A stretch of DNA of 64,000 nt, taken from the NCBI GenBank assembly GCA_020628855.1, contig JAHDEL010000011.1, positions 1 to 64,000 on the forward strand. The letters are read 5' to 3'. A program made the position numbers and the translations under genes. Shown here in pieces: positions 21,120 to 58,784 of the stretch. Numbering within the stretch: position 1 is the first letter of the stretch; each line of letters opens with the position of its first letter. The notes below the pieces were generated by a model. The model saw only the letters and a program-made list of their open reading frames with translations. It did not search any database and was not told the DNA's origin. Origin of the DNA: Saprospiraceae bacterium (GTDB taxonomy: Bacteria > Bacteroidota > Bacteroidia > Chitinophagales > Saprospiraceae).

Positions 21120-24100
21120 CGTTCTACAGTAATAAATCCTGTGTTAGCTTCTTCTCCATTATTCAAATTCAAAATATAGTAATAGGTACCCGATGGCAAT
21201 GGCTCCCCATTGTAGAGAGCCATCCAATCATTAGCATAAGGTGCAGCACTGTACACTTCATCCCCCCATCTATTAAAAATGATTAATTCGTGTTCAGGAT
21301 AGTTATTATCAGACAGGCACGGTATTCTGAATGTATCATTATAACCATCATTATTAGGAGTTACTAGATTTGAAACAAAACAGTCTTCAGCATTTCCTAT
21401 TGTTATTGTAATCACTGCTTCATCGCAATTCTGAGGACAATGGTCGCTACAAACTGCATAGGTTAATACATCTTGTCCTATATAATCTAATCCACTACTT
21501 AAGGTAATAATTGTACTCTCTAATTGGCTCTCTACAAATTGTCCTTCATCTATTGTCATCGTAAATTCCGAAGAAGGAATATTATCATTTTCTTGAGGCT
21601 CTATAGTCAAGACCGCACCGACGTCCATAGTATACAAATCTGCCTGCAACTGGACTTCCTCTTCCACAAACACAGATAATGTATCACTCCCTAGTAGTCC
21701 ACAAACTGCATCATAAGAGTCGATAATAATTATACTGCCCGACTCTACTGAGGATAATTGTAATGACTGTGTGATACTATCTACAGTAACAACTGAATTA
21801 CTTGCATTTGTTTGTATAGAAATGGAATCCGTATTAGTATCGAATATTAATTCGGCATTCTGCCCTAGATCATCACAAAAGAGGATCGAATCGTCTACAA
21901 ATAACACGCCCTCACCTTCTGGTTCAACAATACCGATAGTGTAAATATTTGAAAGTTCGGATTCACATCCTTGGATATAACCTCTGAGGCCTAGAAAAAT
22001 TGGCTGTGCTAATTGACTGAGATCTAAATCAACACAAGGTGTAGTCATTAATTCCAACCTTTCATTTGTAGATGCATTTTCAACGATCAAACTATCGAAA
22101 AGAAATACTTGGTTCTCCTCTATGCACCATTCGAAGCTGGTTAGCGCAGTTGAGCAAACTAATGTATCTGTACTCTGGAGTTGCGGAGGCACAGGAGAAG
22201 ATATTACAAAGAGTGTCTTACTGGCTAGCTCACCATTGGAGCATGTTGCTCTTGAAGCCACAACTGTGTATGCACCAAGATCAGAAGTATTCACATCCTG
22301 GATAATCCATGTTACCCCTTCGAACTCATCTCCACTTGGTCCTGTCCAGGAATAGGTAACTCCTACCTCAGGTTGCAAGACTTCTAGGACTACCGTTTCT
22401 CCAGAACAGACGAAACTTGGTATTGACAATTGTGGGGTTTGCGGTGCTTCTGTTATCTCAATAAACACTGGCAATGATGCAATACTTGAACAACCATTCT
22501 GCTCCACTAATACTGTATATACCCCTGTATTATTTTCGCCAACATTTGCACTAAAAAACAAATTGTTGCTTGTCTGAAAAATGCCATTTGGAGTTTGCCA
22601 TGTATACGAAGTCGAGCCATCACTTGGAATATTACTCTCTAATTGCAAGATCTCTCCTTCACAAGTATTCATGATAGTATTGATAACCGGTTGGAAAGGA
22701 GTGTCATTGATGTTAACCTCAGTGGTAGTCGGATCTGAAATACAACTACCAATGCCAACTTGCAATGTATATACTCCATTGTCGGACAATTGCGCATTCA
22801 ATATTTCAGGATTTTCTACACTAGATTCAAAATCATTAGGTCCTGACCAGATATAATCATAATCACCCGGAGGAAAGACAGTCGGTGTAAATACAATGGA
22901 CTGACCTTCACCCTCGCAACTTGGAGCGGTATTGCTTAATGCCGTTATTACTGGAGGAATATTAATCTCGACAAGCGTGCTCTCTTGAATACTACATCCG
23001 GCATTAGTGATTATTGATAGCACGTATTCACCAGCTTCTGCAATTACCTTTGGTCTTTGTCCTTGATACATCACTCCTCCAGGACTGGTCCATGTGTAAG
23101 TTGCATCTGGAATAAAAGTCGCATTTAGCTGCAGCGAATCACCAGTACAAACAGGGCCATCATTACTGACACCAACTTGTAAGCTACTTTCGACTGTAAC
23201 CATAAATGGCAATGAAATATCAGACTCACACAAGTCTTGCTCTACAAAGCATGTCCATTGGCCAGAAAGATTGGAAGAGGCATTAGGAATTGTTAATGAA
23301 TTTGTGACCGTATTAGAAAAGAACACCCCATCTAACAACCATGTATAACTATCGACATTTCCAGTATTCTGAGCATTAATGCTAAAATTGGCACCTTCAC
23401 AAAGTAGATTATCTCCGGTGATAATTGGAGCATCTGGTCTAGTGAAAACAATGACTTGTACTGTAACTGTATCAGAAAGACATCCTTGGTCATCTACTTG
23501 CAATGTATAAGTGCCTTGATTGTCAGTTGATGCATTCTCTATAATTTGAGGTTGTGGGCCAGAGCCAATATACCCAGCTGGACCTGTCCAGACATAATCA
23601 AAAGTGGCATTTCCATTCTCAGCTACAAATTGAATATCTTCTCCCTCACATACTGATATGAACGTAGTATTGATAATGGCTTCAGGCTGTTCCGAAATAA
23701 AAACTGTAATCTCATTTGATGGATTACTCACACAATCTTCTGATGAGGCAACGACATAATAATGATGTTCTCCATCCAACGGAGTAAGAGTAATGGATGG
23801 AGTCTGAGTGATACCAAGTATTATGCCTTGAGGAGGCACGCCTTCATACCAGGTATATTGGACAGCAGTACCGAAGTTGGTTGCATCTAACGTCACCTCT
23901 TCGCTTGCACAATAGCCTGTGGATTCTGTACTGATTTGAGGATCTTGAAATTGATTAACCACCACATCAAATTCCGCTGAACTGGTACAATTATTAAATC
24001 CAGAAATGATTAATTGATACGTTCCAGAATTAACTTGTCCAGGGGAGCTAATGACTGGATTCATCAAATCCGAAGAAAAATTATTGGGCCCAGACCATGC

Positions 24101-27100
24101 AAAAGATAAGAGCTGTATATCATTACCAGGAGGGACATTTGCAAAGAACTGCAAGTCATCGCCCTGACATAATCCAAGGCTAAAAGTTGGATTGATTGCT
24201 TGTGTTATGACGCTTACATTAGAAAAACAACTTGAAGAATTACCAAATTGATCAGTCACTATGGATTGAATTGAAATAGTAGATCCAGTTGCATCACACC
24301 CAATCTCAGATGGGCTAGCATTAAATGAGTAGGCTCCACAATTATCAATAGCATTAGACAGAAGCAATGTTTCTGATAAGTCAAATAAAGAAGCTCCATC
24401 AAGCTGTAATACCACAACTGTGTCTTTACATTCAACAGAAGGTGAAATGGTATCAATAACAGAGACTTGATACTCGCAAGATGCCATATTGCCAGTTTCA
24501 TCTGATACCTCATAGGTTATTGTATAATCACCAACATCTAAAGTATGACTTGGTGGATCAATGACATCAGTAATCATACCACTAATTAGGGTGTCTCCAG
24601 TGATAATATAAGTTGGCTGAATATCGCTATAGGTAAGTAAAAGCTTCAATGAGGATTGGTTATCAAACCCTTCATTTACATTACCACATGCTGGCAAGTT
24701 ATTAGCTTCGAATAAAAACACTACTGCATCATCTTCTAGCCAAGCTGCAAAGAAATCCTCTTCCAGTGGGACAATGAATGAACCTGATGGACCGCAAGAC
24801 TCCAAGTCTTCAGATGTAATAGTCAAGAGGTCTTCACCATTTTCTCCAAGAATTCCTATTTCTGAATCTGTTACGTTTCCAGAAAATTCGACTCTTAATT
24901 GAGGATTCTCTATTACTCTTTCGCTAGCATTAGGAATAACAAATTGGAATTGCTTGTTGCCACTGATAAATGATTCACTAGATTGATCAAATTCAAACTC
25001 TAGAAAACCTGGTCCGCTAGCTGGATTACTCACTGTAATCTTACTTGCCGAAATACAATTATCTGAATAGACAAAATTGTTGTTGAGCGTAAACTCATGA
25101 CTGCATGCAATGTCTGCATACAATATGGTATCTCCAGGGCAAATAATTTGTGGCGGTTCATTATCTATAATGGAGAGGACGGTTTGACATGTTGCTGTAT
25201 TACCGCCGCAATCTTTTGCTTCAAAAAGAATGTCATATTCCCCTTCTTCTAATGTAAGGAATAACGAATCTTGGTGAGAAACGTCAGTTGGTCCTATGCC
25301 ATCAAGATAATATTGTAATTCTAAACTGGTACTTTCTGTCACAAACCATTGGAGAGTTAGGCCAATGCTTGCTCCAGGGCAGACAGGATTTATTCCATTA
25401 GAGCTCACCCCTAAAGGAATGTTGGGAATAAGTTGGACAACTATACTATCATTACTCAACCAACCAATGACATCATCATATGGCAAAATTGCGACTAGAT
25501 AACTTGTGTCACCACACTCATTATGAATAGTCTTGGTAAAATCAACAAAATCTGATTCTATAACTATCGAAAAATATTCTTCAATTCCATCTATATCAAG
25601 ATTATTCATTGCAATAGATAAGTGCAGATCCTGTTGTGCTAATCTCGATTGATCAATACTAACAAAAGCATAATCCAATGTATCAACTATCTCTTCTTCA
25701 AGTCCTGAATCTGAAATAACATCCTTGACTACTACTTCGGAAGTGGGTCTGTTGCTGAGCAGGCAATTATCCATTACTGTTGGCAAGGCTAGTTTTGCAT
25801 CAGCTATACAGTCACTCCCCTCTAATAATACTTCAATGCTATCTTGGCAGTTAATAAGTGTGGGAGGAACAGTATCCGACAAGGTGATTCTTGCAAAATC
25901 CTGAACCACATTACCACATGCATCTTGAAAAACGAAGGCAACATCTTCTGAGTAAACAACACCAAGTGCTTGTTCTAGGCATATTTCATTATCTTCTATT
26001 ATCGGTGGTGTTCCTGGATATGTATTCGGATCTGTAATCAAGAAAGACCCAATTTCAGCTACAAAGGCAACAACATCTGAACAATCATCGGAGAGAACAC
26101 TACCTCCAAGATCTGCCTCCCAGTTTGAAATCAATTGGTTATAATCTGTTCCGATATCACAATGCAGTGCTAAGTCTATTGGCCCAGATGTGATTACTGG
26201 AGGATCAAAATCTATGAAATTGATCATCTGCACTGCTTGACTCGAATTTCCACAAGGGTCAGTTGCAGTATAAAGTCTTGAAATTACAGGGTTGCAATTA
26301 TCTTCATCAATAGTCTCATCTTCAAAAGTGATCGTCACATGACTACCACAACCATCTGTCACGCTAATCAAATCATCAATTTGATCGGGATCTACACTAC
26401 AGCTCAAGCTAATCGAATTGTCCAGACTTATTTGAGGTCCAACAGTATCAATGACTTGCAGTGTTTGAGTATGGGTTAATACATTACCACATGCGTCTTC
26501 CACATCCCATACTCTTTCGAGTAAATATTGTGAATACTCACAACTCATACTATCAGTTACTTGAGTGGTGAATTCATCAGGCATGTAAGTAATGGTCAGA
26601 TCACAATAATCGAATACGATCATGGAATCAACCTCAGGAATGTCCTCACAGCTTACTGTACTATCAATAGGGGTCTCGGTGAAAAAAGGCGAAATAGTGT
26701 CAACGATGGACAGACGTGCTATTGCAGCCCTCTTATTTTCACAATCATCACTGGCGAAAAAGGACACATCAATGTACCAATCACACATGTCTCTATGTAT
26801 AGGGATTTCATGTTGATTGGAGAAAAGTGCAAAGCCATTATTGCCTTGATTATCTGCCCAAATGTACTCTCTCCAAGTAACCCCACCGCACGCATCTACT
26901 GCTTCAGCTCCACCAATAGTATCAATCCAGTTTTGAATGTTTTGAGAAATCAAAGCGTCACAACTCAAAGTAATATCTGTTGGAGGAACAGTAATTTCAG
27001 GTCTGTCGTCATCTATTACTGAGAAGGTTGCATAGGACGTATCTATGCTTGCATTTCCGCAGGTATCTACTGGGAAAAAGCCAAGTGTTAACTGTCCAAA

Positions 27101-27400
27101 ATTGATACAATTTCCCACTTGGACAGCATTAAATGTATCAATGAGTTGACTTGGATCAATGGTGCTTTGGATACTGGCAACACTATCATTATCCGAAGCT
27201 GTTAATCCAGCTGCATCCGAAAACCAAAAAATAAGAGAATCTTGAAAACTGGATTCGCAAGGTACCGTCCAATCCAATGCAGGACTCAGAATCACAGGTG
27301 GAATAGTATCTCCAATAGCAAGTTCTGCTCTCAAAACATTGCTTTTGAGGAAGAATATCAAACTCAGGAAGAAAAGATATAGTAATCTTCTATTCAACAC
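21116..27400 (-). CDS. Giant T9SS type B (gliding-motility CTD) adhesin
   Basis: A 2094-residue secreted protein. It has a signal peptide (about residues 1-25). From about 30 to 1120 are HYR/Ig-like modules, each with paired Cys and phrases such as DTISPFF, DACGN and DDCENK. From about 1120 to 1790 there is a run of Ig/PKD-like modules of about 85-90 residues marked by paired Cys, YTWTSPGG or YVWTGPAG and GTYTLQV. The C-terminal type B T9SS signal is at about 2000-2094 (VTPNNDGYNDTFRI, LIIFNRWGDEVY, SGTYYYIL). It is first in an operon with PorP/SprF and OmpA, overlapping porP as ATGA. Its target surface is unknown. Confidence 0.92.
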   Translation of the reverse strand: MLNRRLLYLFFLSLIFFLKSNVLRAELAIGDTIPPVILSPALDWTVPCESSFQDSLIFWFSDAAGLTASDNDSVASIQSTIDPSQLIDTFNAVQVGNCINFGQLTLGFFPVDTCGNASIDTSYATFSVIDDDRPEITVPPTDITLSCDALISQNIQNWIDTIGGAEAVDACGGVTWREYIWADNQGNNGFALFSNQHEIPIHRDMCDWYIDVSFFASDDCENKRAAIARLSIVDTISPFFTETPIDSTVSCEDIPEVDSMIVFDYCDLTITYMPDEFTTQVTDSMSCEYSQYLLERVWDVEDACGNVLTHTQTLQVIDTVGPQISLDNSISLSCSVDPDQIDDLISVTDGCGSHVTITFEDETIDEDNCNPVISRLYTATDPCGNSSQAVQMINFIDFDPPVITSGPIDLALHCDIGTDYNQLISNWEADLGGSVLSDDCSDVVAFVAEIGSFLITDPNTYPGTPPIIEDNEICLEQALGVVYSEDVAFVFQDACGNVVQDFARITLSDTVPPTLINCQDSIEVLLEGSDCIADAKLALPTVMDNCLLSNRPTSEVVVKDVISDSGLEEEIVDTLDYAFVSIDQSRLAQQDLHLSIAMNNLDIDGIEEYFSIVIESDFVDFTKTIHNECGDTSYLVAILPYDDVIGWLSNDSIVVQLIPNIPLGVSSNGINPVCPGASIGLTLQWFVTESTSLELQYYLDGIGPTDVSHQDSLFLTLEEGEYDILFEAKDCGGNTATCQTVLSIIDNEPPQIICPGDTILYADIACSHEFTLNNNFVYSDNCISASKITVSNPASGPGFLEFEFDQSSESFISGNKQFQFVIPNASERVIENPQLRVEFSGNVTDSEIGILGENGEDLLTITSEDLESCGPSGSFIVPLEEDFFAAWLEDDAVVFLFEANNLPACGNVNEGFDNQSSLKLLLTYSDIQPTYIITGDTLISGMITDVIDPPSHTLDVGDYTITYEVSDETGNMASCEYQVSVIDTISPSVECKDTVVVLQLDGASLFDLSETLLLSNAIDNCGAYSFNASPSEIGCDATGSTISIQSIVTDQFGNSSSCFSNVSVITQAINPTFSLGLCQGDDLQFFANVPPGNDIQLLSFAWSGPNNFSSDLMNPVISSPGQVNSGTYQLIISGFNNCTSSAEFDVVVNQFQDPQISTESTGYCASEEVTLDATNFGTAVQYTWYEGVPPQGIILGITQTPSITLTPLDGEHHYYVVASSEDCVSNPSNEITVFISEQPEAIINTTFISVCEGEDIQFVAENGNATFDYVWTGPAGYIGSGPQPQIIENASTDNQGTYTLQVDDQGCLSDTVTVQVIVFTRPDAPIITGDNLLCEGANFSINAQNTGNVDSYTWLLDGVFFSNTVTNSLTIPNASSNLSGQWTCFVEQDLCESDISLPFMVTVESSLQVGVSNDGPVCTGDSLQLNATFIPDATYTWTSPGGVMYQGQRPKVIAEAGEYVLSIITNAGCSIQESTLVEINIPPVITALSNTAPSCEGEGQSIVFTPTVFPPGDYDYIWSGPNDFESSVENPEILNAQLSDNGVYTLQVGIGSCISDPTTTEVNINDTPFQPVINTIMNTCEGEILQLESNIPSDGSTSYTWQTPNGIFQTSNNLFFSANVGENNTGVYTVLVEQNGCSSIASLPVFIEITEAPQTPQLSIPSFVCSGETVVLEVLQPEVGVTYSWTGPSGDEFEGVTWIIQDVNTSDLGAYTVVASRATCSNGELASKTLFVISSPVPPQLQSTDTLVCSTALTSFEWCIEENQVFLFDSLIVENASTNERLELMTTPCVDLDLSQLAQPIFLGLRGYIQGCESELSNIYTIGIVEPEGEGVLFVDDSILFCDDLGQNAELIFDTNTDSISIQTNASNSVVTVDSITQSLQLSSVESGSIIIIDSYDAVCGLLGSDTLSVFVEEEVQLQADLYTMDVGAVLTIEPQENDNIPSSEFTMTIDEGQFVESQLESTIITLSSGLDYIGQDVLTYAVCSDHCPQNCDEAVITITIGNAEDCFVSNLVTPNNDGYNDTFRIPCLSDNNYPEHELIIFNRWGDEVYSAAPYANDWMALYNGEPLPSGTYYYILNLNNGEEANTGFITVER

Positions 27401-43629: not shown

Positions 43630-44592
43630 TTATTCAAGAATTCCGAGGTGTACAATTCTACCGCCTGTCTGGTTGACTGGGCTCACGCTCTTCCCTATGA
43701 TGATTCCTTTCTCTGGGGAAAAATATTGTTTTGTAATATCTCCAAAAATATTTCTTACTGTAGCAATGAGTTGATCCTTTTCAACAATTTCAGTCACTTG
43801 AGGATGTACAGTTAACAGTCCACCTAAATCAGAATATATCCAATAAGAATTCTTACAAATCTTTGTTTCATTAGAAATTTCTTCAAGATCAGAATCTGTC
43901 ATTTCTAAATAACTGAGTAGGTTGTGTATACCTGTGAGTCCATCTCGAATTAAGCCTTTTTGAAATAAATTGGGATTGCCTACTTCAAAAGTTATTGCTG
44001 GAATTCCTAAATCATCTGCGGCTCCTCTCAAAGTACCATCATTGGGAGGATTATGTACAATTATTTGTGGGTTCTGCAATAATGCCATTTTTCTAACAGT
44101 TGGATTGCCCATATCTGCTCGAATATAATAGGAGTTAATTCTTCCATTGCTCGCTGTATGTAAGTCCAATAAATAGTCCAGATGCTTGAGAAGTTTATTG
44201 ACAACTCTCCAAGCATAGACACTACTTACATTTCCATTTTCTGCACCAGGCATAATATGGTTAAGGTCAACACCGTCTAGAAAGCGCCTCTTCTTCCTTA
44301 GAAAGGAAGGAACATTTACAATTGGAACTCCGATAACACAACCTTTTAGTGTCAATGGGTCTATCTCTTTAAATAATCTTTGAATTACAGGGATACCATT
44401 CAATTCATTTCCATGAATAGCTGCTGTTAAACCAAGAACCTTCCCATCTTCAAATCCTTTTGCTATGATCAAGGGTAATCTCACAGGCACACCCATACCG
44501 TCTTCCACGAGATGTAACCAATACCGACTCACTTTTCCTTTCGGCACCGAAGCAAGATTTATTTGATTAATTGTTAATGGTTCTTCGGTCAT
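43630..44592 (-). CDS. Succinylglutamate desuccinylase/aspartoacylase-family hydrolase
   Basis: A zinc carboxypeptidase-fold amidohydrolase of about 320 residues. Metal-binding residues appear in GLTAAIHGNELNG (His, Glu) and LLDLHTAS (His), with a catalytic-Glu region in ITFEVGNP. The family removes acyl groups from amino acids, but this subfamily often sits beside RimK-like ATP-grasp ligases. I favour the Met at 44592; Met codons at 44613 and 44625 would enlarge the overlap with the ATP-grasp gene (stop 44567). It is last in the polyamine/ATP-grasp operon. Substrate unknown. Confidence 0.85.
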   Translation of the reverse strand: MTEEPLTINQINLASVPKGKVSRYWLHLVEDGMGVPVRLPLIIAKGFEDGKVLGLTAAIHGNELNGIPVIQRLFKEIDPLTLKGCVIGVPIVNVPSFLRKKRRFLDGVDLNHIMPGAENGNVSSVYAWRVVNKLLKHLDYLLDLHTASNGRINSYYIRADMGNPTVRKMALLQNPQIIVHNPPNDGTLRGAADDLGIPAITFEVGNPNLFQKGLIRDGLTGIHNLLSYLEMTDSDLEEISNETKICKNSYWIYSDLGGLLTVHPQVTEIVEKDQLIATVRNIFGDITKQYFSPEKGIIIGKSVSPVNQTGGRIVHLGILE

Positions 44593-45598
44593 ATTGGTTT
44601 GCTTTTTGGACATCACAGTAATCAAGTAGCAATGCTATTGCTTTTTCGACAAGCGGTTTTCCTGTCAATTTAGCAATTTGAGGAAGTCCTCCTATACTCG
44701 TTGCATTAATTTCTGACAATACTCGTATGCCGTTATCGTCAACAAGCGTGTCAATTCCGTACATAACAATTCCCTTTGCTAATAGACTGGGATTAATTGA
44801 GTCAACTATTTTCTTTTCTTCTTCGGTTACATCTGCATAATGTGATGTCCCACCCATGGCAACATTACAAATCCAAGAATTGTCTGCTGGTAATCGTAAA
44901 GAAGCACCTAAAATGTGCCCATTGACAACAATAATTCTTTTGTCACCTTTCGTGACATTTTTCAGATACTTAACTGCTAGATACTCAAATGAGTCTGGCA
45001 AACTTGTAATAAACTGATCATAACTTAATTTGTTAGAACCAATCCATACTTCTTCATTCTCAATTTTGACAATCCCCTTCCCTCCATATTCTCTAAAAGG
45101 CTTAAGTACAATAGGGTGTCTGCTCTTGAATGCCGTTATATCTTCTGGATTACTACAAATTTCCATAGGAGGACAAACATCTACAAAATTTAGTAAAAAC
45201 GCCTTCGTACCTGTATGATAAATAGACCTTGGATTATTTATGATTGTGATATTCGGGCATACTCTCTCCAAAAATGTAGCAAACTCATAGCTGAGAGGTG
45301 GAGGCAATCTTAACCAAATGATATCGTAATCCTGAGGGTTTACAGTATATTCTATTTTATTGAGTGGATTATAAATCTCATCAAAACGAAAAAAATGATT
45401 TACTCTAGTCACACCCAATTTTGCATTTACACTATTGAAAAACTCGTGGTTTTCAATATTCTTTCGACTTGCAATATCTACAAATGTGACTCTTGAATCA
45501 AGAAGTAACTTGAGAGCCATATCATATAAAGCATTCTCACTACTATGCTTAGTATGATCTGTAAGAATTAGAACACGATATGTCTGCTTTATCTCCAA
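44567..45598 (-). CDS. RimK/glutathione-synthetase-like ATP-grasp ligase
   Basis: A 343-residue ATP-grasp protein. The N-terminal pre-ATP-grasp domain has DYDIIWLRLPPPLSYEFATF in parts and INNPRSIYHTGTKAFLLNF, much like glutathione synthetase (NxPxxxxxxxxK). The ATP-grasp region includes PIVLKPFREYGGKGIVKI (Lys and glycine loop), then the metal-binding VLSEINATSIGG near the end. It forms an amide or peptide bond between a carboxylate and an amine. It starts 2 bases after the acidic 97-residue gene and overlaps the aspartoacylase-like gene, so it probably makes the bond that enzyme hydrolyses, or feeds it. Confidence 0.88.
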   Translation of the reverse strand: MEIKQTYRVLILTDHTKHSSENALYDMALKLLLDSRVTFVDIASRKNIENHEFFNSVNAKLGVTRVNHFFRFDEIYNPLNKIEYTVNPQDYDIIWLRLPPPLSYEFATFLERVCPNITIINNPRSIYHTGTKAFLLNFVDVCPPMEICSNPEDITAFKSRHPIVLKPFREYGGKGIVKIENEEVWIGSNKLSYDQFITSLPDSFEYLAVKYLKNVTKGDKRIIVVNGHILGASLRLPADNSWICNVAMGGTSHYADVTEEEKKIVDSINPSLLAKGIVMYGIDTLVDDNGIRVLSEINATSIGGLPQIAKLTGKPLVEKAIALLLDYCDVQKANQYDRRTINN

Positions 45599-45600
45599 AA

Positions 45601-45894
45601 TTACTCTGCTACTTCATCTAGTTCATCTTCAATCCGAGCCTTTGCTTCTTCTGTCAAGTTGCCCTCGTCATCATAGTCTTCATCTTCCTCAACAATTGTT
45701 TGTGCCTGAGCTTTCGTCATTCTCACTAAATAATAATATTCATCTGTTTCGAACGGAAGCGCTGTGACAAATTTGCCATCTTTATTCTTATACTGAATTA
45801 ATTTTTCGTCAAATCCTCTGGGGTATTCTAGCTTAATTTGAAACAACACCTCTTCTTTGAGATTTACAAAGTCTTTTACAATTCTAGGTTTCAT
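45601..45894 (-). CDS. Small acidic Bacteroidetes protein (97 aa)
   Basis: A 97-residue protein without a named family. The N-terminal half is a compact beta/alpha-like segment (VLFQIKLEYPRGFDEKLIQY, FVTALPFETDEYYYLVRM, in parts) and the tail is very acidic (EEDEDYDDEGNL). I recall similar proteins in other Bacteroidetes but no function. It starts immediately after the DksA-like gene (1-base gap) and precedes the RimK-like gene by 2 bases. Confidence 0.82.
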   Translation of the reverse strand: MKPRIVKDFVNLKEEVLFQIKLEYPRGFDEKLIQYKNKDGKFVTALPFETDEYYYLVRMTKAQAQTIVEEDEDYDDEGNLTEEAKARIEDELDEVAE

Positions 45895-45895
45895 T

Positions 45896-46255
45896 TTATT
45901 TCTTTTGTTGTTTTGCTATAATGCTTTTCGTGGTTGTTGGTACTGCTCGCAATCTGTTCTTATCAATTAAATTTCCAGTAACACTACAGATTCCATAGGT
46001 TCCTTTTGCTATTCTACTTAAGGCTGCTTCTATATGTCTCAAATGAACTAGAGCTCTATCACGTGTATCCATTAAATAGCTCAACTGAGTATCATAACCC
46101 GTATTCTCGATACTATTCTCATCTTTTCCATTTTCACTGATTTCTTGAATCTGAGTGCTGTACTCTTCGATTTGTTCATTGGTCCTTCTTTTCTTGATTA
46201 AGAGCAGATGCTCGAAGTCTTCAAGATCTGCTTTGGTATACCTAGTTTGTTTCAT
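45896..46255 (-). CDS. DksA/TraR-family protein lacking zinc cysteines
   Basis: A 119-residue DksA-like protein: a helical coiled-coil hairpin (about residues 8-85), then the degenerate C4 zinc-finger region YGICSVTGNLIDKNRLRAVP. Only one of the four zinc-binding cysteines remains, a change common in Bacteroidetes members (usually with CRxTG). Proteins of this family bind the RNA polymerase secondary channel and tune transcription. Here it sits inside a polyamine operon between two very small genes, 3 bases after the Lys-rich one. Confidence 0.87.
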   Translation of the reverse strand: MKQTRYTKADLEDFEHLLLIKKRRTNEQIEEYSTQIQEISENGKDENSIENTGYDTQLSYLMDTRDRALVHLRHIEAALSRIAKGTYGICSVTGNLIDKNRLRAVPTTTKSIIAKQQKK

Positions 46256-46258
46256 TTT

Positions 46259-46408
46259 CTAGTCATTTAATAATTCATCTAACATTTTCCTTGAATTAAA
46301 TTTTTTCTCCTTCTTCAAAGTCAACCTTGCTTTTTCTTTTGTCTTTCTAATTCTTCTTTTAGAATCCTTTGAAGAGTAACTGTCTTTAAATTTTTTTAGA
46401 TTTTTCAT
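46259..46408 (-). CDS. Lys-rich basic small protein (49 aa)
   Basis: A 49-codon gene, ATG 46408 to TAG 46259. The product is strongly basic (about one third Lys/Arg), beginning MKNLKKFKDSYSSKDSKRRI and ending with an acidic tip MLDELLND. No family recognised. It starts 3 bases after the DHS-like stop (TAA-AGG-ATG, the AGG serving as ribosome site) and ends 3 bases before the DksA-like start. That exact packing supports it being real. It could be a nucleic-acid-binding peptide, or possibly a substrate of the neighbouring DHS-like enzyme (speculative). Confidence 0.75.
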   Translation of the reverse strand: MKNLKKFKDSYSSKDSKRRIRKTKEKARLTLKKEKKFNSRKMLDELLND

Positions 46409-46411
46409 CCT

Positions 46412-47383
46412 TTACCAGTTTAATAAGTACGCAAATAGTAAAGGAGCCACAATAGTGGCGTCCGATTCAATGATAAATTTTGGAGTCTCTGGAAGTAGTT
46501 TACCCCACGTGATTTTTTCGTTAGGTACTGCTCCTGAATACGATCCATAACTAGTTGTACTATCACTTATTTGACAGAAATATGACCACGTTGGGATATG
46601 ATCTAATTGTAAGTCCTGATGAAGCATTGGCACAACACAAATTGGAAAATCACCAGCAATGCCTCCTCCAATTTGAAAAAATCCAATTTGACTCCCAGTT
46701 GTTTCTTTCTGGTACCATTCTGCTAAGGACATCATGTATTCTATTCCTGACTTAGTCGTACTCGCATTCAATTTTCCTTCAATGCAATATGATGCGAAAA
46801 AATTGCCACAAGTTGAGTCTTCCCAGCCAGGTACGAAGAGTGGAATGTTTTTCTCAGCTGCAGCCAATAGCCAACTATCCTTTGGATTAATTTGATAGCT
46901 TTCCTCCAAATCCCTACTCAGTAGAATCTTATAGAAAAATTCGTGAGGGAAAAACCGATTACCCGAAATATCTGCTGCCTTCCATGCCTTAAATAAATGT
47001 TGTTCGATTGCCCTCATTGCCTCAGCTTCTGGAATACATGTATCTGTCACACGATTGAAATGTTCTCCTAACAATTCCATTTCTTGAGCAGGTGTAAGGT
47101 CACGATAATTGGGAATTCTTTTATAATGGTTATGAGCTACTAGGTTAAAGATATCTTCCTCGAGGTTAGCTCCAGTGCATGTTATTGCATGCACCTTATT
47201 CTTTCTTATCATTTCAGCAAGAGACTTTCCAAGCTCTGCAGTACTCATTGCACCTGCAAGAGTGACCATCATCTTATTTCCCTTTAATAACTGCTGTTCA
47301 TAGGCTATTGCTGCATCTACTAATGCTGCTGCATTAAAATGTTTGTAGTGTTCGATGATAAATTGCGAGACCGGTCCCTTCAT
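46412..47383 (-). CDS. Deoxyhypusine synthase-family enzyme
   Basis: A 323-residue homologue of deoxyhypusine synthase (DHS). Marks: TLAGAMSTAELGK, ITCTGANLEEDI, FFQIGGGIAGDF and SGAVPNEKITWGKL; the last corresponds to the eukaryotic SGARPDEAVSWGK with the catalytic lysine kept. DHS uses NAD and spermidine to move an aminobutyl group to a lysine of eIF5A. Bacteria lack eIF5A, so the acceptor here must differ. Homospermidine formation from putrescine is the best-known alternative for bacterial relatives. It follows agmatinase by 2 bases. Confidence 0.9.
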   Translation of the reverse strand: MKGPVSQFIIEHYKHFNAAALVDAAIAYEQQLLKGNKMMVTLAGAMSTAELGKSLAEMIRKNKVHAITCTGANLEEDIFNLVAHNHYKRIPNYRDLTPAQEMELLGEHFNRVTDTCIPEAEAMRAIEQHLFKAWKAADISGNRFFPHEFFYKILLSRDLEESYQINPKDSWLLAAAEKNIPLFVPGWEDSTCGNFFASYCIEGKLNASTTKSGIEYMMSLAEWYQKETTGSQIGFFQIGGGIAGDFPICVVPMLHQDLQLDHIPTWSYFCQISDSTTSYGSYSGAVPNEKITWGKLLPETPKFIIESDATIVAPLLFAYLLNW

Positions 47384-47385
47384 AA

Positions 47386-48237
47386 TTATGATAAAAATTT
47401 ATAGGATAACAGTTTGTAATAAAGTTTAGCGACTAGATATTGCGGGTTATGCAAGTAATCAATTGGAGCCAACTCCACGATGTCGAAGCCTACTACATTC
47501 TTCTCTTCAAATACTTTTCGGAGGTAGTTAGTGACCAAATACCAATGCAAACCACCTGGTTCTGGTGTGCCAGTTGCTGGCATGATAGAAGGGTCAAATA
47601 CATCTAAGTCTATTGTAATATAGACTTGATCAGTCATTTGATTTATTGACTCATCAAACCAACTCTCCGTGTACTTAATTTCGTCAGCAAAGTAGGTTTT
47701 GTAATAATCCATATGCTCCTTTTCTGCGAAATCCATACTTCTGATTCCTACCTGAATGAGATTGCAGTTTTTACTAGCATCATACAAGGCACATGCATGA
47801 TTATACTTCGAACCTTCATACTCAGGCCTCAAATCAGCATGAGCATCTAATTGGAGGACTGTCATATTTTCATACTTTTCGTAAAATGCTTTTATGACAC
47901 CTATACTGACAGAGTGCTCCCCTCCAAAAAATGTGAGAAACTTCTCAGTATTTAATAAGGCTTTTGTTTTGTGATAGGTCGATTCGAACATGTCTTCAGG
48001 ACTGTCGAAATTTGTCCATGCATCAGGTATGAAGATGCCATTTTTGTAAACTTGAGAATCTGTTTCAATATCATACAGTTCCATATTCTCAGCAGCATCT
48101 AAAAATGCTTCAAATCCTTTGTCTGCGCCTTTACCCCAAGTGCTAGTCCCATCATATGGAATAGATTGTAATATAACCTTTGCAGTTTCTTTGTTTGAAT
48201 ACTGAGATGGGATACCAGCGAATGCTCTTGCTTTCAT
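47386..48237 (-). CDS. speB: Agmatinase (ureohydrolase)
   Basis: A manganese ureohydrolase of 283 residues that converts agmatine to putrescine and urea. Metal-binding motifs: FFGGEHSVSIG, LQLDAHADLR and TIDLDVFDPSIMPATGTPEPGG in parts (IDLDVFDPS). I chose ATG 48237 (MKARAFAGIPSQYS), 7 bases after the speA stop. An upstream in-frame Met at 48336 would overlap speA by 92 bases and add an atypical N-terminus. Arginase activity is possible, but the speA neighbour favours agmatine. Confidence 0.92.
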   Translation of the reverse strand: MKARAFAGIPSQYSNKETAKVILQSIPYDGTSTWGKGADKGFEAFLDAAENMELYDIETDSQVYKNGIFIPDAWTNFDSPEDMFESTYHKTKALLNTEKFLTFFGGEHSVSIGVIKAFYEKYENMTVLQLDAHADLRPEYEGSKYNHACALYDASKNCNLIQVGIRSMDFAEKEHMDYYKTYFADEIKYTESWFDESINQMTDQVYITIDLDVFDPSIMPATGTPEPGGLHWYLVTNYLRKVFEEKNVVGFDIVELAPIDYLHNPQYLVAKLYYKLLSYKFLS

Positions 48238-48244
48238 ACTTATT

Positions 48245-49654
48245 TTACTTATATCCAAGAATTGATAACATTTCATCAACTGTCTGTTCGTTGCGATAGA
48301 CATAGTCCACAAAGTTGCCTTTCTCATCTCTATCAATTATTATCAATTTGGGAGCAGGAATGAGGCAGTGCTTTATTCCTCCATATCCACTAATTGAATC
48401 TTGATAGGCACCTGTGTGAAAGAAGCCAACATAGAGAGGCTCCGTGGAGTCTGCTTCAATCTTAGGCAGAAAGAGCTGTTGATTGAAATCTTCGGAATTA
48501 TAGTAATCAGAATGATCACAACTAATTCCGCCTATATTGACTTTTGTGTATTCATTCTCCCATTTATTAATCGGAAGAAGAATGAATTTTTCCAAAATTG
48601 ACCAAGCATCAGGTATTGTATTCATTAAGCTATTATCAACCATATACCAAACCTCCCTATCATTTTGATACTTCTGCTCCAACACTTGAAATATGATTGC
48701 TCCGCTTTCCCCAACAGTATATTTTCCGAACTCTGTAAATATGTCGGGCTCATCAATGTTTGCTTCTACACAAGCTGTCTTGATGTTACCAACAATTTCG
48801 TTGATCATATATTCATAGTCATAATCAAAACCCAAATTATTTCGAATTGGAAAACCTCCCCCCAGATTGATAGCCTTGATATCTGGACATACGCGCTTGA
48901 GATCAACGAAGAGTTTGAGAGCCTTCTGAAATTCACCCCAATAATAGACTGTATCTCTTATACCAGAATCAATAAAAAAGTGCACCATCTTGAGAGATAG
49001 GTTTTCATCATGCTCAATTTCATTTGCATAAAAATCTAAAATCTCAGAGGGCCGAATCCCAAGACGAGACGTGTAATATGCAGACTGTGGTTCTTCATCA
49101 ATAGCAATACGTATTCCTATTTTTAACTTACCATGATATTCTTCTGCATACTTTTTTACACGCTGAATCTCAGTCTTAGAATCCAGCACCAATATCGAAT
49201 TTTTGAACCCAACTTGATTTAGCAAGACTATCTTCTTCAAGTAGTCTTCAGTCTTATAACCATTATGCACAATAATAGTGCTCTTGGTAAGCTCGCCTTC
49301 GTCAAGAAGTTTCAAGATTAAGTCAATATCAAAAGCAGACGATGTCTCCAATTGGACTTGTTCCTTTAATGCGGTTTTGAGTACATGGGAAAAATGACAA
49401 CATTTTGTACAATAACAATAGTTGTAATTCCCCTTGTATTTGTGTTTATTAATAGCTCTGTTAAATAGATTTCTGGCTTTCTTAATCTGTTCTCCAATTC
49501 TGGGTAAGTACATCAATTTGAATGGAGTTCCATATTTTTCAATGAGGTAGTTTATGGATATGCCATGAAAGGTGAGATAGTCGTTTTTCAGGTCGAAACC
49601 TTCCTGAGGAAAATAATAACTTTGATCTATCAGATCGAAAAATGTATTTTTCAT
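48245..49654 (-). CDS. speA: Biosynthetic arginine decarboxylase (short Bacteroidetes type)
   Basis: A 469-residue fold-type III PLP decarboxylase giving agmatine from arginine. The PLP lysine lies in YCYCTKCCHFSHV (about residue 82). Further marks are ETSSAFDIDL, INLGGGFPIRN and the C-terminal PLYVGFFHTGAYQD. It lacks the large inserts of the E. coli enzyme (over 630 residues), as usual in this phylum. Its ATG shares a base with the TGA stop of a 14-codon leader ORF. speB follows at 7 bases. Confidence 0.9.
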   Translation of the reverse strand: MKNTFFDLIDQSYYFPQEGFDLKNDYLTFHGISINYLIEKYGTPFKLMYLPRIGEQIKKARNLFNRAINKHKYKGNYNYCYCTKCCHFSHVLKTALKEQVQLETSSAFDIDLILKLLDEGELTKSTIIVHNGYKTEDYLKKIVLLNQVGFKNSILVLDSKTEIQRVKKYAEEYHGKLKIGIRIAIDEEPQSAYYTSRLGIRPSEILDFYANEIEHDENLSLKMVHFFIDSGIRDTVYYWGEFQKALKLFVDLKRVCPDIKAINLGGGFPIRNNLGFDYDYEYMINEIVGNIKTACVEANIDEPDIFTEFGKYTVGESGAIIFQVLEQKYQNDREVWYMVDNSLMNTIPDAWSILEKFILLPINKWENEYTKVNIGGISCDHSDYYNSEDFNQQLFLPKIEADSTEPLYVGFFHTGAYQDSISGYGGIKHCLIPAPKLIIIDRDEKGNFVDYVYRNEQTVDEMLSILGYK

Positions 49655-49698
49655 CAGTAGTAATTTTCTTTTTTACTTTTGGTAGGTAAATTTTTCAT
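49654..49698 (-). CDS. Putative 14-residue leader peptide before speA
   Basis: A short ORF, ATG 49698 to TGA 49654, coding MKNLPTKSKKENYY. Its stop overlaps the speA ATG as TGATG. It is the only ORF in the 71-base gap. Leader peptides control polyamine genes elsewhere (SpeFL ahead of speF). Chance occurrence is quite possible, as the ribosome-site context is weak. Confidence 0.35.
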   Translation of the reverse strand: MKNLPTKSKKENYY

Positions 49699-49725
49699 GT
49701 TTGACTTTAGTAATTGCATAGTGTG

Positions 49726-51159
49726 TTAATCAATTAAAATTTCATCAAGTAAACTCTGGTCATCATTAAGACTTTTAAAAAGCTTTGACCTGAAGCGACC
49801 TTGTTTATTCACTAAGGTTTGTGCCATTTTATCAATAGCTACCATCGACAGCACTGTCTGAATATATGCCTCAATTAAGTCATCTAAACCAATACCAAGT
49901 TTGTTGAAGTCTCTACGATCCATGAGTACTAGTCTATTAGTATCACTTCCCCATGATCCATCTTCATGTTTAAATGACAGGTTTGTACCAAGCATTGACC
50001 AACTATCTGTGCCTGTAAGAATATTGTCAACTAGAGGCTTTTCAGCTCTTCTTGCATAAGTACAAAGCGGCTGTATTCCTGTCTCAGTTGCACAGACCAT
50101 CATACGAATATCTGCTACGAATGTTTGGTTTTTTTGATTAGGTATAGTTCCTACATGATACAGTTTTCCTGATGATGTTGTGCTACTCCAATTAGAATTA
50201 CCTATTAGGCTTTGAACAATAAAAAGATCATAGTCAAATTCCAATTCCATGAATGTATCTAATTCTTCTTCTGTCACAATAGTATAGACGCCTTGTCCTG
50301 CATTGCTGTATGGAACTTTTATGACAGCATGACCACCCATTTTTCTAACCCATAGTGGTATTTCATTCTTACTGACATCCCAGATCGTTTCAGGGATATT
50401 GATTTTGAGTCCATAAGGCATCAGTTCAGCATTAAATATATCATACGCTTTGGCAGCGACCATTTTATTTCTACCTCCGGCTAAACAAGCTAGTGTCGGA
50501 TTAATAATTCTGGTCTTAGCATTTACAGGAATCCTGTTCCACGGTTTTTGTGTTACATAGCGAAAAGCCGCTCGGATAGGTATCCATTCTTCTTCAAACA
50601 AGATTTCCATTACGCCGTCGACAAATCGCACATTTTGACACTCGTTCTTGAAGAATGGCACGTAATACACAGGCTCATTCATCACATCAGCAATAACTTC
50701 AGCGTATCCTGAAGTTTCCATTTCATTCTTATCATAAATTACGGCTAAGCCTCCGTTGATCCGATTTCTTAAGTTTTTAAGCCTTGGCTTGAAAGTCCTC
50801 TCGATAAGTAATCTATAACTACCTTGCTCTTGGTTGTCGTCAACTAACGGCATTGATTTTTGTCCTGAAGGACATGAGTTGTTTTCTATTACAACCATTT
50901 GCCTCTTTCCAGTTGCAGAAGTTACATTTAAGAGGTCTGCGCCAGCCCATGGAAAGTATTTAACCTTGTGATTGAGTATTTCTTTTAGCTTATCACGCTG
51001 TACGCTAGGGTGCATGTGACAATACCTGGTGACTATCCTTTCTTGCTCCAAGTTTAGAAAAAAACTAATCATTGGATGGATAGTAGCATTTAGTGCTTTG
51101 CCATACCAATGATGATGTGGCTCAAAATCGCCGGGTAATATCAACCTTGTTTTTTTCAC
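49726..51159 (-). CDS. ATP-grasp-like ligase of unknown product
   Basis: A protein of about 477 residues. The N-terminal part has [19 protein letters not shown] and [13 protein letters not shown]. The C-terminal half looks like an ATP-grasp fold: [20 protein letters not shown] (Lys and glycine loop, about residue 300) and [10 protein letters not shown] (metal-binding Asp/Arg, about 360). I cannot name a subfamily. The start is unsure: GTG 51159 (VKKTRLIL) is favoured, and TTG 51198 is possible. It is the first gene of the polyamine operon, 71 bases ahead of speA, suggesting it makes an amide with a polyamine or amino acid. Confidence 0.72.
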
Positions 51160-51314
51160 AATTTGACGCAAAAAAATTAAGCTTCCTATAGACGTCAATT
51201 TAGGATATAAAGTTGCTTTTTAACTTTGAATAAATCAACAAAAAAATTAAAATAATTTTTGTCAAAAATTCAATAGTCTGATTATCAATAAGTTGAATTT
51301 ATATCGATCCTGAA

Positions 51315-54300
51315 TTAGTTGAATATTAAAGTAACATCACCAACTTTCTTGAGGTCTTTGACACCATCACATTCAAGATATGTAATCGTATTAATATAGA
51401 CATACACACCTGATTCTGCTTGTTGATTATCAAAGTCACCACTCCAACAATCTTCAGGGTCATCGGTTTCGAAAATGAGATTACCCCATCTATCAAAAAT
51501 GATCAGATGAAAGGTAAGCAACTCGATATCAGATGGATATCCTGTTGTGAAGCAATTATTAGGGGCTTCTCCATTACCGATAAAAATATTAGGTGCAAAC
51601 ACAGATTCCTCATCAAGTAGTTCTACATACTCAATCTCCCAAGCGTGAGATACTTGTGAACATTGATCACTGATTGTTACTGCATAAGTGCCATTCTGAC
51701 TTGCTAATAGTTGTGAATTTTGAGATCCATTATTCCAATCATAGCTGGCTTCTCCAAACTGGCTAGTAATCATTGGTATGATCATCAAGTTAGTAGACTC
51801 ACAATCAACTGAAATGTCAGGCCAAGTAACTTCTAGTGCTGGGTGGGCATCTACAGTGAATGCCGTACCAGTTTCACATCCGTTGTTATCAAGACCTGTT
51901 AGCATATAAGTGCCAGGCTCTAATCCTGTTATGCTGTCAGATGTTGCAATAACATCTGAATCTAACATCAGATTAGTAAAAGCGGAAACATTATTTATCA
52001 CCACACCACCAGAACTTTCACCAATACAACTAGAGATTGGATCAATATCTAATTCTTCTGTAGGCATTGATTCGATTACAAAAGGCAGACTATCAAGACA
52101 CCCAAATAGGCTCATAATGTAGAGCATATGATCCCCTACAGAAAGTTGTTCATAAATTAATGCGTCAGAAAGTTGTGTCACATCATCCACAGCATATTGA
52201 GCACTCCCTGTAAGCTCCTCTATACTCAAAGTACCTTCCGATTGTAGTTCGCAGGAATGTTCAGTATTAATGCTGATTTCTGGGGTAGCGTGAGCACCGA
52301 TTGCAAATGGCATTTGGTATTCGCATCCTGATTGACTCAAAATATTCAGTATGTGTGATCCAGGAGCTAAGTTGTAAAACTCTAAGACATTAGTATAATT
52401 AAAGTCGTCCACAGCAAATTGTGCTAATGGATCATCCGTGGCAATACTCAATTCTCCAGAATTTTGCTGTTCACAAGAACCACTTGATGATATGTCAACA
52501 ATAGGCTCGATGTATGCTTCTATTTCGAATGGTAAGTTATACTGACAACCAAGAGTATCGGTTATCAATAGGTTATAATTTCCAACTCCTAAATTTTCGA
52601 ACATCAGATCCTGCTGAGCATTAGTCACACCCTCTATCTCAAATGTGAGATCTTCGCCATCAACAATGGTTATCTCCAAGCTTCCATCCTCCGAGTCTTC
52701 GCAAGACATACTAGAGTTTCCAATTACTTCAGGAGCTACTGCGGTCTGGATTTCGAAGGGTTCTTCATAAATACATCCTTCCAGTGTTTGGTAGTAAAGT
52801 GTATAACTACCTGTGTTTAAGTTATCAAATTCTGCTACACTTTGGAATGTTGTCCCATCAAGTGAAAAAGTAAGCCCTGTATTATTAGACTCTATTTCAA
52901 TTGCTCCACTCGTAGTGGTCTCACACGCAGTATTGATAGTAATGTCAACACTTGGTTCGACAAATGTGCCAATTACAAAAGGTAGACTATCCAAACAACC
53001 AAACTCCGACAGCATATATAATTGATAGTTGCCATCTCCAAGATTATCAAATGTTGTTGCTTGACTAAATGTTTCATTCAAATCCAACGAAAACATCGGA
53101 TCTCCAGCTACAACCGTAACCTCAAGTGACCCTGATGTACTATTTTCACATGACTCTTCTGCGAGTATCTGGACCATTGGCTCTTGAAACACTGAGATTT
53201 CAAAAGGATATTCATACATACATCCAAGTGTATCTTCCACGTAGAGTGTATAATCTCCAGCAGGTAAGTCTTGAAACAGAGAAGTACCAAGCGACAACTG
53301 TCCTGGATCAAGTCCAATATTTACAGGATAATTGCTCAAATGGACTATTTCTAAACTACCCTAGGCTAAGTCAGTGCACGTTGATTCAGGATCTAATAGG
53401 ATATCAGGTTGGTCAATTTCGAGTATCTCAAACTCCAATTCTTGCGTGCAACCATCATCTGTTGTCAATAGCAGTGAATGCATTCCACTCTCTAGCTGCA
53501 TCTCTGTTAAAGTGAGAGAATCAATATTGTCACCATCCAGAACATAACTGACATTCTCTTGATTAACATTAAATATTTCGAATTGCCCAATGTCAGCCAA
53601 TGCACATGTCGGTTGGATTGCATACTCAAACTCGAGTAACGGATACGCATATACTTCGATGAATATTGTCGAATCACATCCTGTTGCAGTCACATATCTC
53701 AGCGTGTCCAGATCATCTTGAGAATAGAAAGTACCTCCATATTCGACCATCTCTCCGGGACATACGGCAAGCATCATCTCTTCTTCACTGTTCTGGCATG
53801 AGACAGTAAGAGGAAAATCGACCAACTTGTCTTCAATACAATTGGAAAATGTAATCAAACTATCAACTGCACCAGAATAAGTCAGATCTAAACCAGAGGT
53901 ATCGATGACTACTGTCAAATTGCTATAATTGACTTCACCAAAGTCATATTGGCCATTAATGTCAGTTGTGTCCTGCTGCAATAGTGTGTTACCAAGCAAA
54001 AGCAAGACTTCTACACTATCAAGTAAGGTTTCTCCAGCATCATACATCTCATTGTTATTGTCATCAATGAAGACTACACCAGAAAGTGTCTGTTGATCAG
54101 GAGTTGCTGTCAGAGAAAGCACATCAGTGATTGTTGTACATCCGAAAGCGTTTGATACTTCTATTTGGTAGTCTCCAGGTTTATCTATGCTCACTTCAGT
54201 AGAAGTGCTACTTATAACACTTACGGGATTCCCTGATTCCAATAGCTGGTACGTATTTTCTTCATTGAGACTCAAGCAATAATTCTCAGGGAAGCAGACT

Positions 54301-57300
54301 TCCAGACATCCAGTCAACCATGTTGGAGCTAGTGGTAATGGGTGAATTACTATGGTGTTACTCACTGTTTTACACCCATGCACATTGCTACCTTCAACAA
54401 CATACTCTCCTGCTCCAACCACCTCAATACTTGTGCCCCTCTCTCCTGTGTTCCATCTATAACTTAATTGGCTATCTGGGTTATTAATGGAGAGCACATG
54501 TACTTCGCCTGCACATGGCGTTACATTGTTGTCACTAATCGAAATAGGTGCTGGAACAGGATTAATATTTACTTCGAATGGCTCAATCTCCTGTATACAA
54601 CCCTCCGAAGCGAGGCTTACAGTTACCCCGATCATATGAGTGCCTGTTGGGAGACTTGAAAGGAAGGCATAATCTAAAGTAGATGTAACATGACCAGTTG
54701 TCCAGAGATAGGTCGCTCCTGGATATTCCTCTACTGAGAGTGTAAATGACTCACCAGAACATAAGTCTAGACTTTCGCAATCTGTAACTGGAATTATCTC
54801 ATCAATGTAGTAGGTTCCACAAATTCTCAGCTGGTCAATTGGAATATTTGTAATGGTCACTGGATCAGGCACATAAACACAATCATCCGAATTAGTAATC
54901 GTCACATTATATATACCTGATTGATCGGTAGAAATACTTTGTGTGGTTTCTCCTGTTGACCAGAGATACATATTCCCGGGACTTGGTGAGGTTAGCGTTA
55001 CTACTTCTTCTGGACACTTAGGACCAGGTGGAGTTAGGGTGATATCTCCTGTAAGAGTATTATTTGCTATTGTTATTTCTTGTGTTACTTGGTAAGAACA
55101 ATCGTCGATATCAGTTACCGTCAGTGTCACTTCATAAGTCCCAGGGCTATTATAGACATGCACTGGTTTGATAAGTTCAGATGTATCAGCATTTCCCGAA
55201 AGGGGATCATCAAAGACCCAGAGATATTCGAAGTCCCCAAGCAATAAATCAAAAGACATCTGTAAACTATTTCCTTGACAATTCAATGTGTCGGTGAGAA
55301 TGCTCACTGTAGAATAATCTATAATTTCGACTTGCTTGGTCATAATTGATGTGCAACCTGAAGTATGCTCTATAAAAAGGCTTACATCATAGGTTCCTGG
55401 AGACGAAAACAGATGTTGAGGGTTTGTCAGAGCTGATACATTATCGGCCCCACTCGCTGGATCACCGAAGTCCCAACTATACGTTATGCCAGTCAAATCT
55501 GGAACAAATGAAGAAAGATCTGTAAACGCCACTGGATCCGTAAGGCATTTGACTTCGAAAGTAAAATCAGGCATAACTGGAACCCTGACCTGCATCCTTC
55601 CGATTTCGTTATTAATATTGCCAAAAGCGACAACATCATAGTATCCAACTTCTGTAAATACATGAGTTGCTGTAAGCCCTACTGCACTATTTAACGGACC
55701 ACTCTCAGGATCATCAAAATACCAAGTAAATGATGTGCTAGCAAAGGTAGGGTCAACTGAAAATTCATAATTATTACACTCAGCTAGATTGTCATCATCC
55801 GGTCCATCAATGTATCCTGCAGTCAGATCCACTGGTATACTTGTACCAGGTCCACCAGGACCTCCACAGTTCTCAACTAACGTAAGTATATTAGAGAATA
55901 CCTCGCATCCAGCATCATCTGTCAATCTTAATTGATAATCTCCGAAAATATTGGTGCTGTATTTAGGAGTAATGGCTGTTGATAGGATTGCTCCATCTCT
56001 GTACCATTGATAATCGTAACTTCCTTGAATAACTTCAGCAAGCAAGGTGACATCCGGGTGAGGTAAGCAAAAACTCAAATCATCCGCTGAGAAGATAGAT
56101 ATGCCAAATGAATCCCTTTCGGTAAACTTTATCCTTGTGCTATCAGTACACCCATCTTCATCAGTAAGAACAACTTCATAAATTCCTGGCTTTAGTAATG
56201 AGATTTGACCAGTTGAAGCCACAATCTGATTCTCATCGATGACTTCTATGGTTGATCCAGGTGGGTTTGTCACCGTCACCATCCCCAATTCACCAAAACA
56301 AACTTCATCTGGATAACTGACATCAAATATCGGTGCTGGCAATACAGTAACTATCTGTTCGACCGATACGCCACAAAGACTCCCAATCAATTTGTGAGTT
56401 CCTGCTTCTTGCCAAAATACAGTAACCATATCATCTTGTTGGCTAGCAATATAACCTGTTGTGTTTGGCTCAATTGACCAAACCATGTCAGTTGGTATGA
56501 TATTCGGAATACTGAAGTCTGAGCTTGAATTTATGCAGACTTCATCTGAACCACTTAACTCGATTTGGTTATCAAAAACGAAGAGCTCTGCTTCGCCTTG
56601 GCACTCTCCTCCTGCAGAAAATAATTGAACTTCAATACTATAAGGACCATCTGACTGCCATGTATAGATAGCGGGATTAGTATTAGTCTGCCATACATTG
56701 GACCCATCATTAAAAGTCCAAGAGACCTGTTCTCCAAGCGCCAAAGGAACGCTATACTCCATTGGAACCTTTTTGCAAATCACTCTAGGACCGGTAATAC
56801 CACCAATAGGAAAAGCAGGTGGGCTAATCACTTGAAACTCCGTGGTATCTCTCAGATTACATGTGGTACCTAGAAGATTCTCAGCAGTAATGGTATAAGT
56901 ACCCTCTTCCTTCACATCAAATGAAAAATATTGCTCAGCCAAGATGATGGAGTCTCGTCCATCTGGAAATTCAATTTTCCAATCCAAATTAATCCATCTT
57001 GAATTAGATATAAAAACATTTTCATCAATGCAAACTTGACTTCCAGCATCCCTTATTTCGAAGCGAGGCTTTAGATTTACCACAAGAGCCGCACTCCCAT
57101 TACATCCTGCTGTGCAACTTTCATAATTGACAATGATAGTTGAGACAGGGTTAGAAGCATAAGTATTCCACTCCACTTGGATAATATTAGTTCCTTGTCC
57201 GCTCACGATCTGTCCATTCATATCTACATCCCAATTGAACTCAACTCCTTGCAAAGGAGGCAAACTATAAATGGAATAGTCTCCCATGCAGACATCAGTT

Positions 57301-58784
57301 GGGCCAGATATTGTACTCGTACTTGTAATGATATTGACATCTTCCGAAACAGTACTGCTGCAAGCACTTTCTAAACAATCAGGTGTTTCTAGACTGACTT
57401 GTCCTTGAGGGCTTCCACTCCAAACAATAGAGATGAAGGATTCATCAGGATCACCACCAACAATGATATTACCTGCAGAACTGACGCTCCAGAGATAAGT
57501 GTCACAGATCACACCACTATAGTAGGTTGCAGTATCTCCTTCGCAGATCGTACCAAGGCAGGTTATTGAAGGTATGTCTCCATTAAGCACCTCAACTTGT
57601 ATGGTGTCAGGTGTACTACAGTGGCATTCACTTAAGTCCTCAAGTACGATTTGATAAATTCCAGCTTGATCATACTCTGCGGAAAATGTATTTCCTTGAA
57701 CTAGCTGACCATCACTACTTGACCAACTTAAGTCCACTGAGTTAGTGAGTTCCGCTGTGAGTTCGAAATTCTCACCTCTACAAACCGTTATGGATTCTTG
57801 ATCACTACCATTATGGTTGATCACCAAGGGACTGCTATTTAAAACAAGGATGGACTTACAGTCAAACTCGAAGAATGTCAATCCATTTGACCAATCTAGA
57901 ATAGTATATTCAACACAGAGACAGTCTTGTCCTTCATCTCCAAAATACAGCTGACTAAAATTTGGTCCTGAGGATAATACAGTGACCATATCTGGATAGA
58001 AAACTTGATAGGAAACAGTGGAAACTAATATACCACTCAATGAATCAGTCTCCAATAAGTTCCGGAAGATAGCAGTATCACCTTCACAAAAGAGATACTC
58101 GACTTCTGCCATTTCTTCTTGCCCAACAGCACAGAACTCCTCCGCTTCTTGTATACAGATATTATCACCTTGTAAAATCCAATTCTCATCATCACAATCT
58201 ACATCACCTATTTTTACTCCCACCCAATCTAAGGTAAGTGCATCAAAAGAATAGTTATTAAGGGCATAGACCTCAACTCCCATTAGATTTGGAGCAAAAA
58301 ACCGCCACGAGATATTATTCGGAAACGTAGAAACTCCTTCTATAACTTGATCAATAGTAACTAAATCAATAGATGTCACTGATCCATCACCATTTGCATC
58401 AGCAGCAATGAATTGACAAGGGTCAGAAAACTGATTAATAGCCAAAATATGATCTTGTATTATTTCCAGGTCTTCCAGATTGACACCTTCAGTCTGATTA
58501 TCCAGTTTACTCACTATAATCTCATAATCTTCGAACTTATCAAAGCAGCCTAAATCATAATACCCATTCTGATCTGTCATCACCCATGTTGTGTTTCCAG
58601 TCATTCCATTTGCTATGGTTACAATTGCACCTTCCACAGGTCTATCACAGCATGATTTGACAAATCCAGTAACAGTAAACTTATCTTCACAAAAGTCTTG
58701 AGCTAACAATGGTTGGTCTATAAAGCTTATCAGAAAGCTAGAGAGCAGAGTAAGAAGAGTCAAATTATGGTTTATTCGTTGCAT
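51315..58784 (-). pseudogene. Giant T9SS type B protein interrupted by in-frame TAG
   Basis: One reading frame of about 2489 positions broken by TAG at 53361-53363. From the N-terminus (58784): a signal peptide (to about residue 29); a carboxypeptidase-regulatory-like domain (about 35-100); a dockerin-like calcium loop DANGDGSVTSIDLVTIDQ (about 128-145); Ig-like modules; three PKD-like modules (ITYSWDFGDPASG, FEYLWVFDDPLSG, FTWYFDDPESG); and an SdrD-B-like domain (VVFIDDNNNEMYDAGETLLD). A run of SprB-like repeats of about 68 residues follows. The type B secretion signal (APNIFIGNGEAPNNC, LIIFDRWGNLIFET) is near 51400-51600. The stop falls within a repeat whose register is kept on both sides. 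A truncated product (1807 residues) would lack the export signal. It may be a pseudogene, an error or a readthrough case. Confidence 0.85.

Follow-up and report, generated by a model that had tools for sequence, protein, structure and literature searches.

Gene frame and internal stop

The gene examined here lies on the minus strand of a window of 64,000 nucleotides, which is the whole stretch of Saprospiraceae DNA that was analysed. Its frame opens with an ATG at 58784 and runs for 1,807 codons to a TAG (53363-53361), continues for another 681 codons and closes with a TAA (51317-51315). The full frame, from 58784 to 51318, comprises 2,489 codons with TAG as codon 1808, and this TAG and the terminal TAA are its only stops. 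Frame analysis and domain search delimit an N-terminal part of 1,807 residues (53361..58784, minus strand) which ends at the premature in-frame TAG (53361..53363, minus strand). The remainder of 681 residues (51315..53360, minus strand) follows in the same frame and consists of Cys-x4-[S/D/E]-Gly repeats and a C-terminal CHU_C domain, before the TAA.

The residues around the stop read STCTDLA*GSLEIV, with the core motif CTDLA*GSL. At the matching position, the gene's own later repeats have C-x4-S-G, C-x4-D-G or C-x4-E-G, and in the repeats which follow the stop the motif is SCENSTSGSLEV, ACETTTSGAIEI, SCEDSEDGSLEI, SCEQQNSGELSI, SCELQSEGTLSI and SCIGESSGGVVI. An earlier note on this DNA had proposed that a single reading frame continues on both sides of TAG 53361-53363, that the truncated product has 1,807 residues, and that the stop occupies the position of the one residue between Cys-x4 and Gly. 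We recalculated the frame, where a mismatch would have counted against the first claim, and found both sides of the TAG in one frame, otherwise unbroken over 2,489 codons, with 1,807 residues ahead of the stop. The third claim agrees with the later repeats of the gene and with the corresponding column of its homologues.

Domains and secretion signals

Ahead of the stop, the domain search returned CarboxypepD_reg, dockerin-like, PKD, Ig_7 and SdrD_B-like matches. The N-terminus is hydrophobic, ends in ...LLAQ and was read by eye as an apparent Sec signal peptide. The CHU_C sorting domain lies beyond the stop (PF13585; 51384..51596, minus strand; E 5.4e-11; 39.3 bits against a cut-off of 27) and is thereby separated from the signal peptide. 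The stop costs the gene product its last 681 residues, this type IX sorting domain among them. The earlier statement that all secretion-signal residues are lost is thus right for the sorting domain but not for the apparent Sec signal peptide, which is retained.

Type IX substrates of Bacteroidota with a type B C-terminal domain (CTD; CHU_C / TIGR04131) include SprB of Flavobacterium johnsoniae. The CHU_C domain detected with PF13585 places the broken gene among such substrates, and the genome encodes SprA and 14 PorP/SprF-family genes, hence a type IX system. The likeness to type B CTD substrates such as SprB comprises the apparent Sec signal peptide, the giant repetitive extracellular part, the C-terminal CHU_C domain and the presence of SprA and the PorP/SprF family in the genome. 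The broken gene differs from them in the stop ahead of its sorting domain and in the TIGR04131 score of its C-terminal part, which at 27.7 bits is below the cut-off of 35. In addition, neither half matched the Pfam model of the SprB repeat at E <= 0.001, so that the description of the repeats as SprB-like is not sustained. A further difference from SprB-type substrates is that no sprF-like gene is adjacent: the neighbours are mnmE and an ORF without Pfam or NCBIfam assignment, and the nearest PorP/SprF genes are found at 20223 and 34398.

A CHU_C gene followed by a PorP/SprF-family gene is the usual substrate-partner arrangement. It is displayed in the same window by an intact CHU_C gene of 2,094 codons at 20172-27400 (minus strand), which has a PorP/SprF-family gene (20223-21116) directly after it; the broken gene is without this arrangement. 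PorP-like partners appear to anchor proteins with a type B CTD at the cell surface (PMC9143113). Of the 32 CHU_C domains found in this genome, that of the broken gene is the one whose frame is known to be interrupted.

Homologues across the stop

For the homologue search, the TAG of the query was read as a residue. Nine genomes of the same family yielded 12 homologous frames of 2,057-2,568 codons, all of which read through the position of the stop, and further stop-free matches span the site in three genomes (G238, G264 and G324). In the stop column, the 12 homologues carry Asn (five), Ser (three), Glu (three) or Thr (one) without any gap, which gives the motif Cys-x4-[S/N/T/E]-Gly. This ungapped alignment bears out the proposal that the register is intact and that one substitution is enough, with no frameshift needed.

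Across the family, homologues turned up in several genera, each as one open frame. One of them, L038 (G189:C56), is 38% identical over residues 17-2319 and aligns straight through the stop, which rules out a chance adjacency of two ORFs. L038 shares the N-terminal domain start with the broken gene; it differs in its frame of 2,568 codons without internal stop, and it belongs to another genus and another gene neighbourhood. As in a nonsense pseudogene, the homologues show no interruption at this point. An unbroken frame is thus the ancestral condition and, on this comparison of sequences, TAG is the derived state, which arose by a change within one codon. The best homologue among 398 genomes of the family is only ~40% identical and hence too distant for the ancestral codon itself to be read. 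Genomes of the same genus gave only local matches of 22-46%, which come from other adhesins or from the sorting domain. In a scan for a closer copy, genome_contigs returned distant matches only and viral_contigs no matches.

Age of the probable break

Under an assumed transition bias, ~3.3% of all single substitutions would produce a stop in this gene. Counting nonsense changes alone, the absence of a second lesion in 2,488 codons sets a 95% upper bound of ~1.2% on neutral divergence since the stop, and including frameshifts at an assumed rate lowers this bound further. Downstream of the stop, the sequence is free of further lesions and has not evolved faster. Compared over the same columns, it mostly equals or exceeds the intact L038 in identity to outside homologues: against L040, the broken gene and L038 score 0.255 and 0.229, 0.280 and 0.195, and 0.345 and 0.333, respectively, in three successive stretches. 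The lack of lesions and of extra divergence after the stop implies a recent break, a wrong base in the assembly or continued production of the full-length protein.

Gene neighbourhood and apparent dispensability

None of three other genomes of the same genus contains a homologue at E <= 1e-100. Two of them (G002 and G003) have unrelated genes at the syntenic place, where gcvP and the next gene lie near mnmE, separated from it by only 2.9-4.6 kb of other genes. In the window, ~15 kb occupy the same place and hold the broken gene and a polyamine-type cluster. Since the gene is absent from the sister genomes, either this lineage acquired it or the sisters lost it, and its loss here is plausible. 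The broken gene is accessory in the genus and looks dispensable.

The cluster (43630-51198, minus strand) is composed of arginine-decarboxylase-like, agmatinase, deoxyhypusine/homospermidine-synthase-like, ATP-grasp and AstE/AspA-like genes and sits between an arylsulfotransferase-like gene and the broken adhesin. Other genes replace it in two genomes of the genus. The ORF which adjoins the adhesin (49726-51198, minus strand, 490 codons) matches neither Pfam nor NCBIfam models at E <= 0.001. The mnmE match of G002 (L036, G002:C48) contains one TGA at its fourth codon; this triplet precedes the likely true start, so it does not mark a broken gene.

Interpretation of the stop

Most simply, either a recent event broke the gene or the assembly contains one wrong base. 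We consider it probable that the locus is a newly formed nonsense pseudogene, or a null allele within the population that was sampled, of a gene for a giant type IX-secreted and probably adhesive protein. The kind of protein is an ordinary one, namely a very large surface protein. One nonsense substitution in a C-terminal repeat of this 2,489-codon gene would end translation at residue 1,807. The short product would be exported by Sec to the periplasm and remain stuck short of the outer membrane, which it could not cross because the type IX sorting domain is missing. The remainder would not be usefully made, as it has no signal peptide. The inactivation is apparently new, either fixed or present as an allele in the sampled population. 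Four readings had been offered in the earlier note, and two of them remain: a very recent pseudogene, favoured by the absence of any other lesion or of decay after the stop and by the intact homologues, and a base-call error, which fits as well, given that a single base is concerned and all else is intact.

Premature stops caused by point mutation in single isolates are known from surface and motility genes of Bacteroidota; in Flavobacterium psychrophilum FPS-S11B, a point mutation in gldB led to such a stop (PMC8400371). In both cases a single point mutation puts a premature stop into a surface or motility gene, but the gene is a different one, and the adhesin case is known from the sequence of one genome alone. 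If real, the break would be a small example of how a Bacteroidota lineage loses an accessory giant surface protein, seen at a stage before further decay.

The second surviving reading, that the gene of the organism is intact and that one consensus base is wrong or the consensus mixes strains there, is the less probable of the two. It would account for a lesion of one base only, with the other 2,488 codons intact and no decay downstream, and the genome is a draft of 74 contigs. Against it, the window shows no other evident broken gene and a high coding density, and the three other pairs of neighbours in the same frame resemble normal gene ends (the one at 38857 alone was checked). If the error is real, it shows how a single base in a draft assembly can mask the sorting signal of a large secreted protein and, at the same time, split its annotation into two genes.

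Functional readthrough or recoding of the TAG, with a low-level long surface form beside a short periplasmic form, is very improbable, and slightly less probable still is a stop that is retained and partly read through, so that a short form in the periplasm would be joined by a rare long form bound to the surface. The continuation of the frame without decay would suit such a process, but release factor RF1 is present (above cut-off) and TAG is an ordinary terminator of 12 of the 47 ORFs in the window, the broken one counted. For instance, gcvP ends with TAG at 38857, directly before a separate epimerase gene in the same frame. Together with RF1, these TAG-terminated genes exclude a general change of the code for this codon, and none of the homologues has a stop at the site. 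A tRNA with a CUA anticodon is absent among the 24 tRNAs recovered, an incomplete set, and from a pattern search, which is supportive but not final; the sole TCTA match within a tRNA falls in tRNA-Glu, outside the anticodon, which discards it as a suppressor. The 100 nt from the stop onwards fold no better than shuffled sequences (z -0.63), and this unremarkable fold speaks against structure-driven readthrough. The readthrough option of the earlier note is thus left with no positive support.

An on/off switch, phase-variable or driven by recombination, is very improbable, since apart from the repetitive nature of the protein nothing suits it: the stop lies outside any simple-sequence or slip-prone tract, long near-identical direct repeats are absent from the gene (the longest direct repeat has 32 nt at 88%), its only tandem array (2.4 copies of 8 bp) is 900 bp from the stop, and slippage is not known to produce substitutions that create a stop. 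Slippage and recombination were accordingly rejected for want of suitable repeats, and the phase-variable option with them.

The recent nonsense pseudogene remains the favoured reading. As a separate observation, the table of CHU_C domains in the genus contains one match only with stops inside the domain, G003:C53:705-860 of a same-genus genome, which has two TGA triplets and is possibly another decaying sorting-domain gene.
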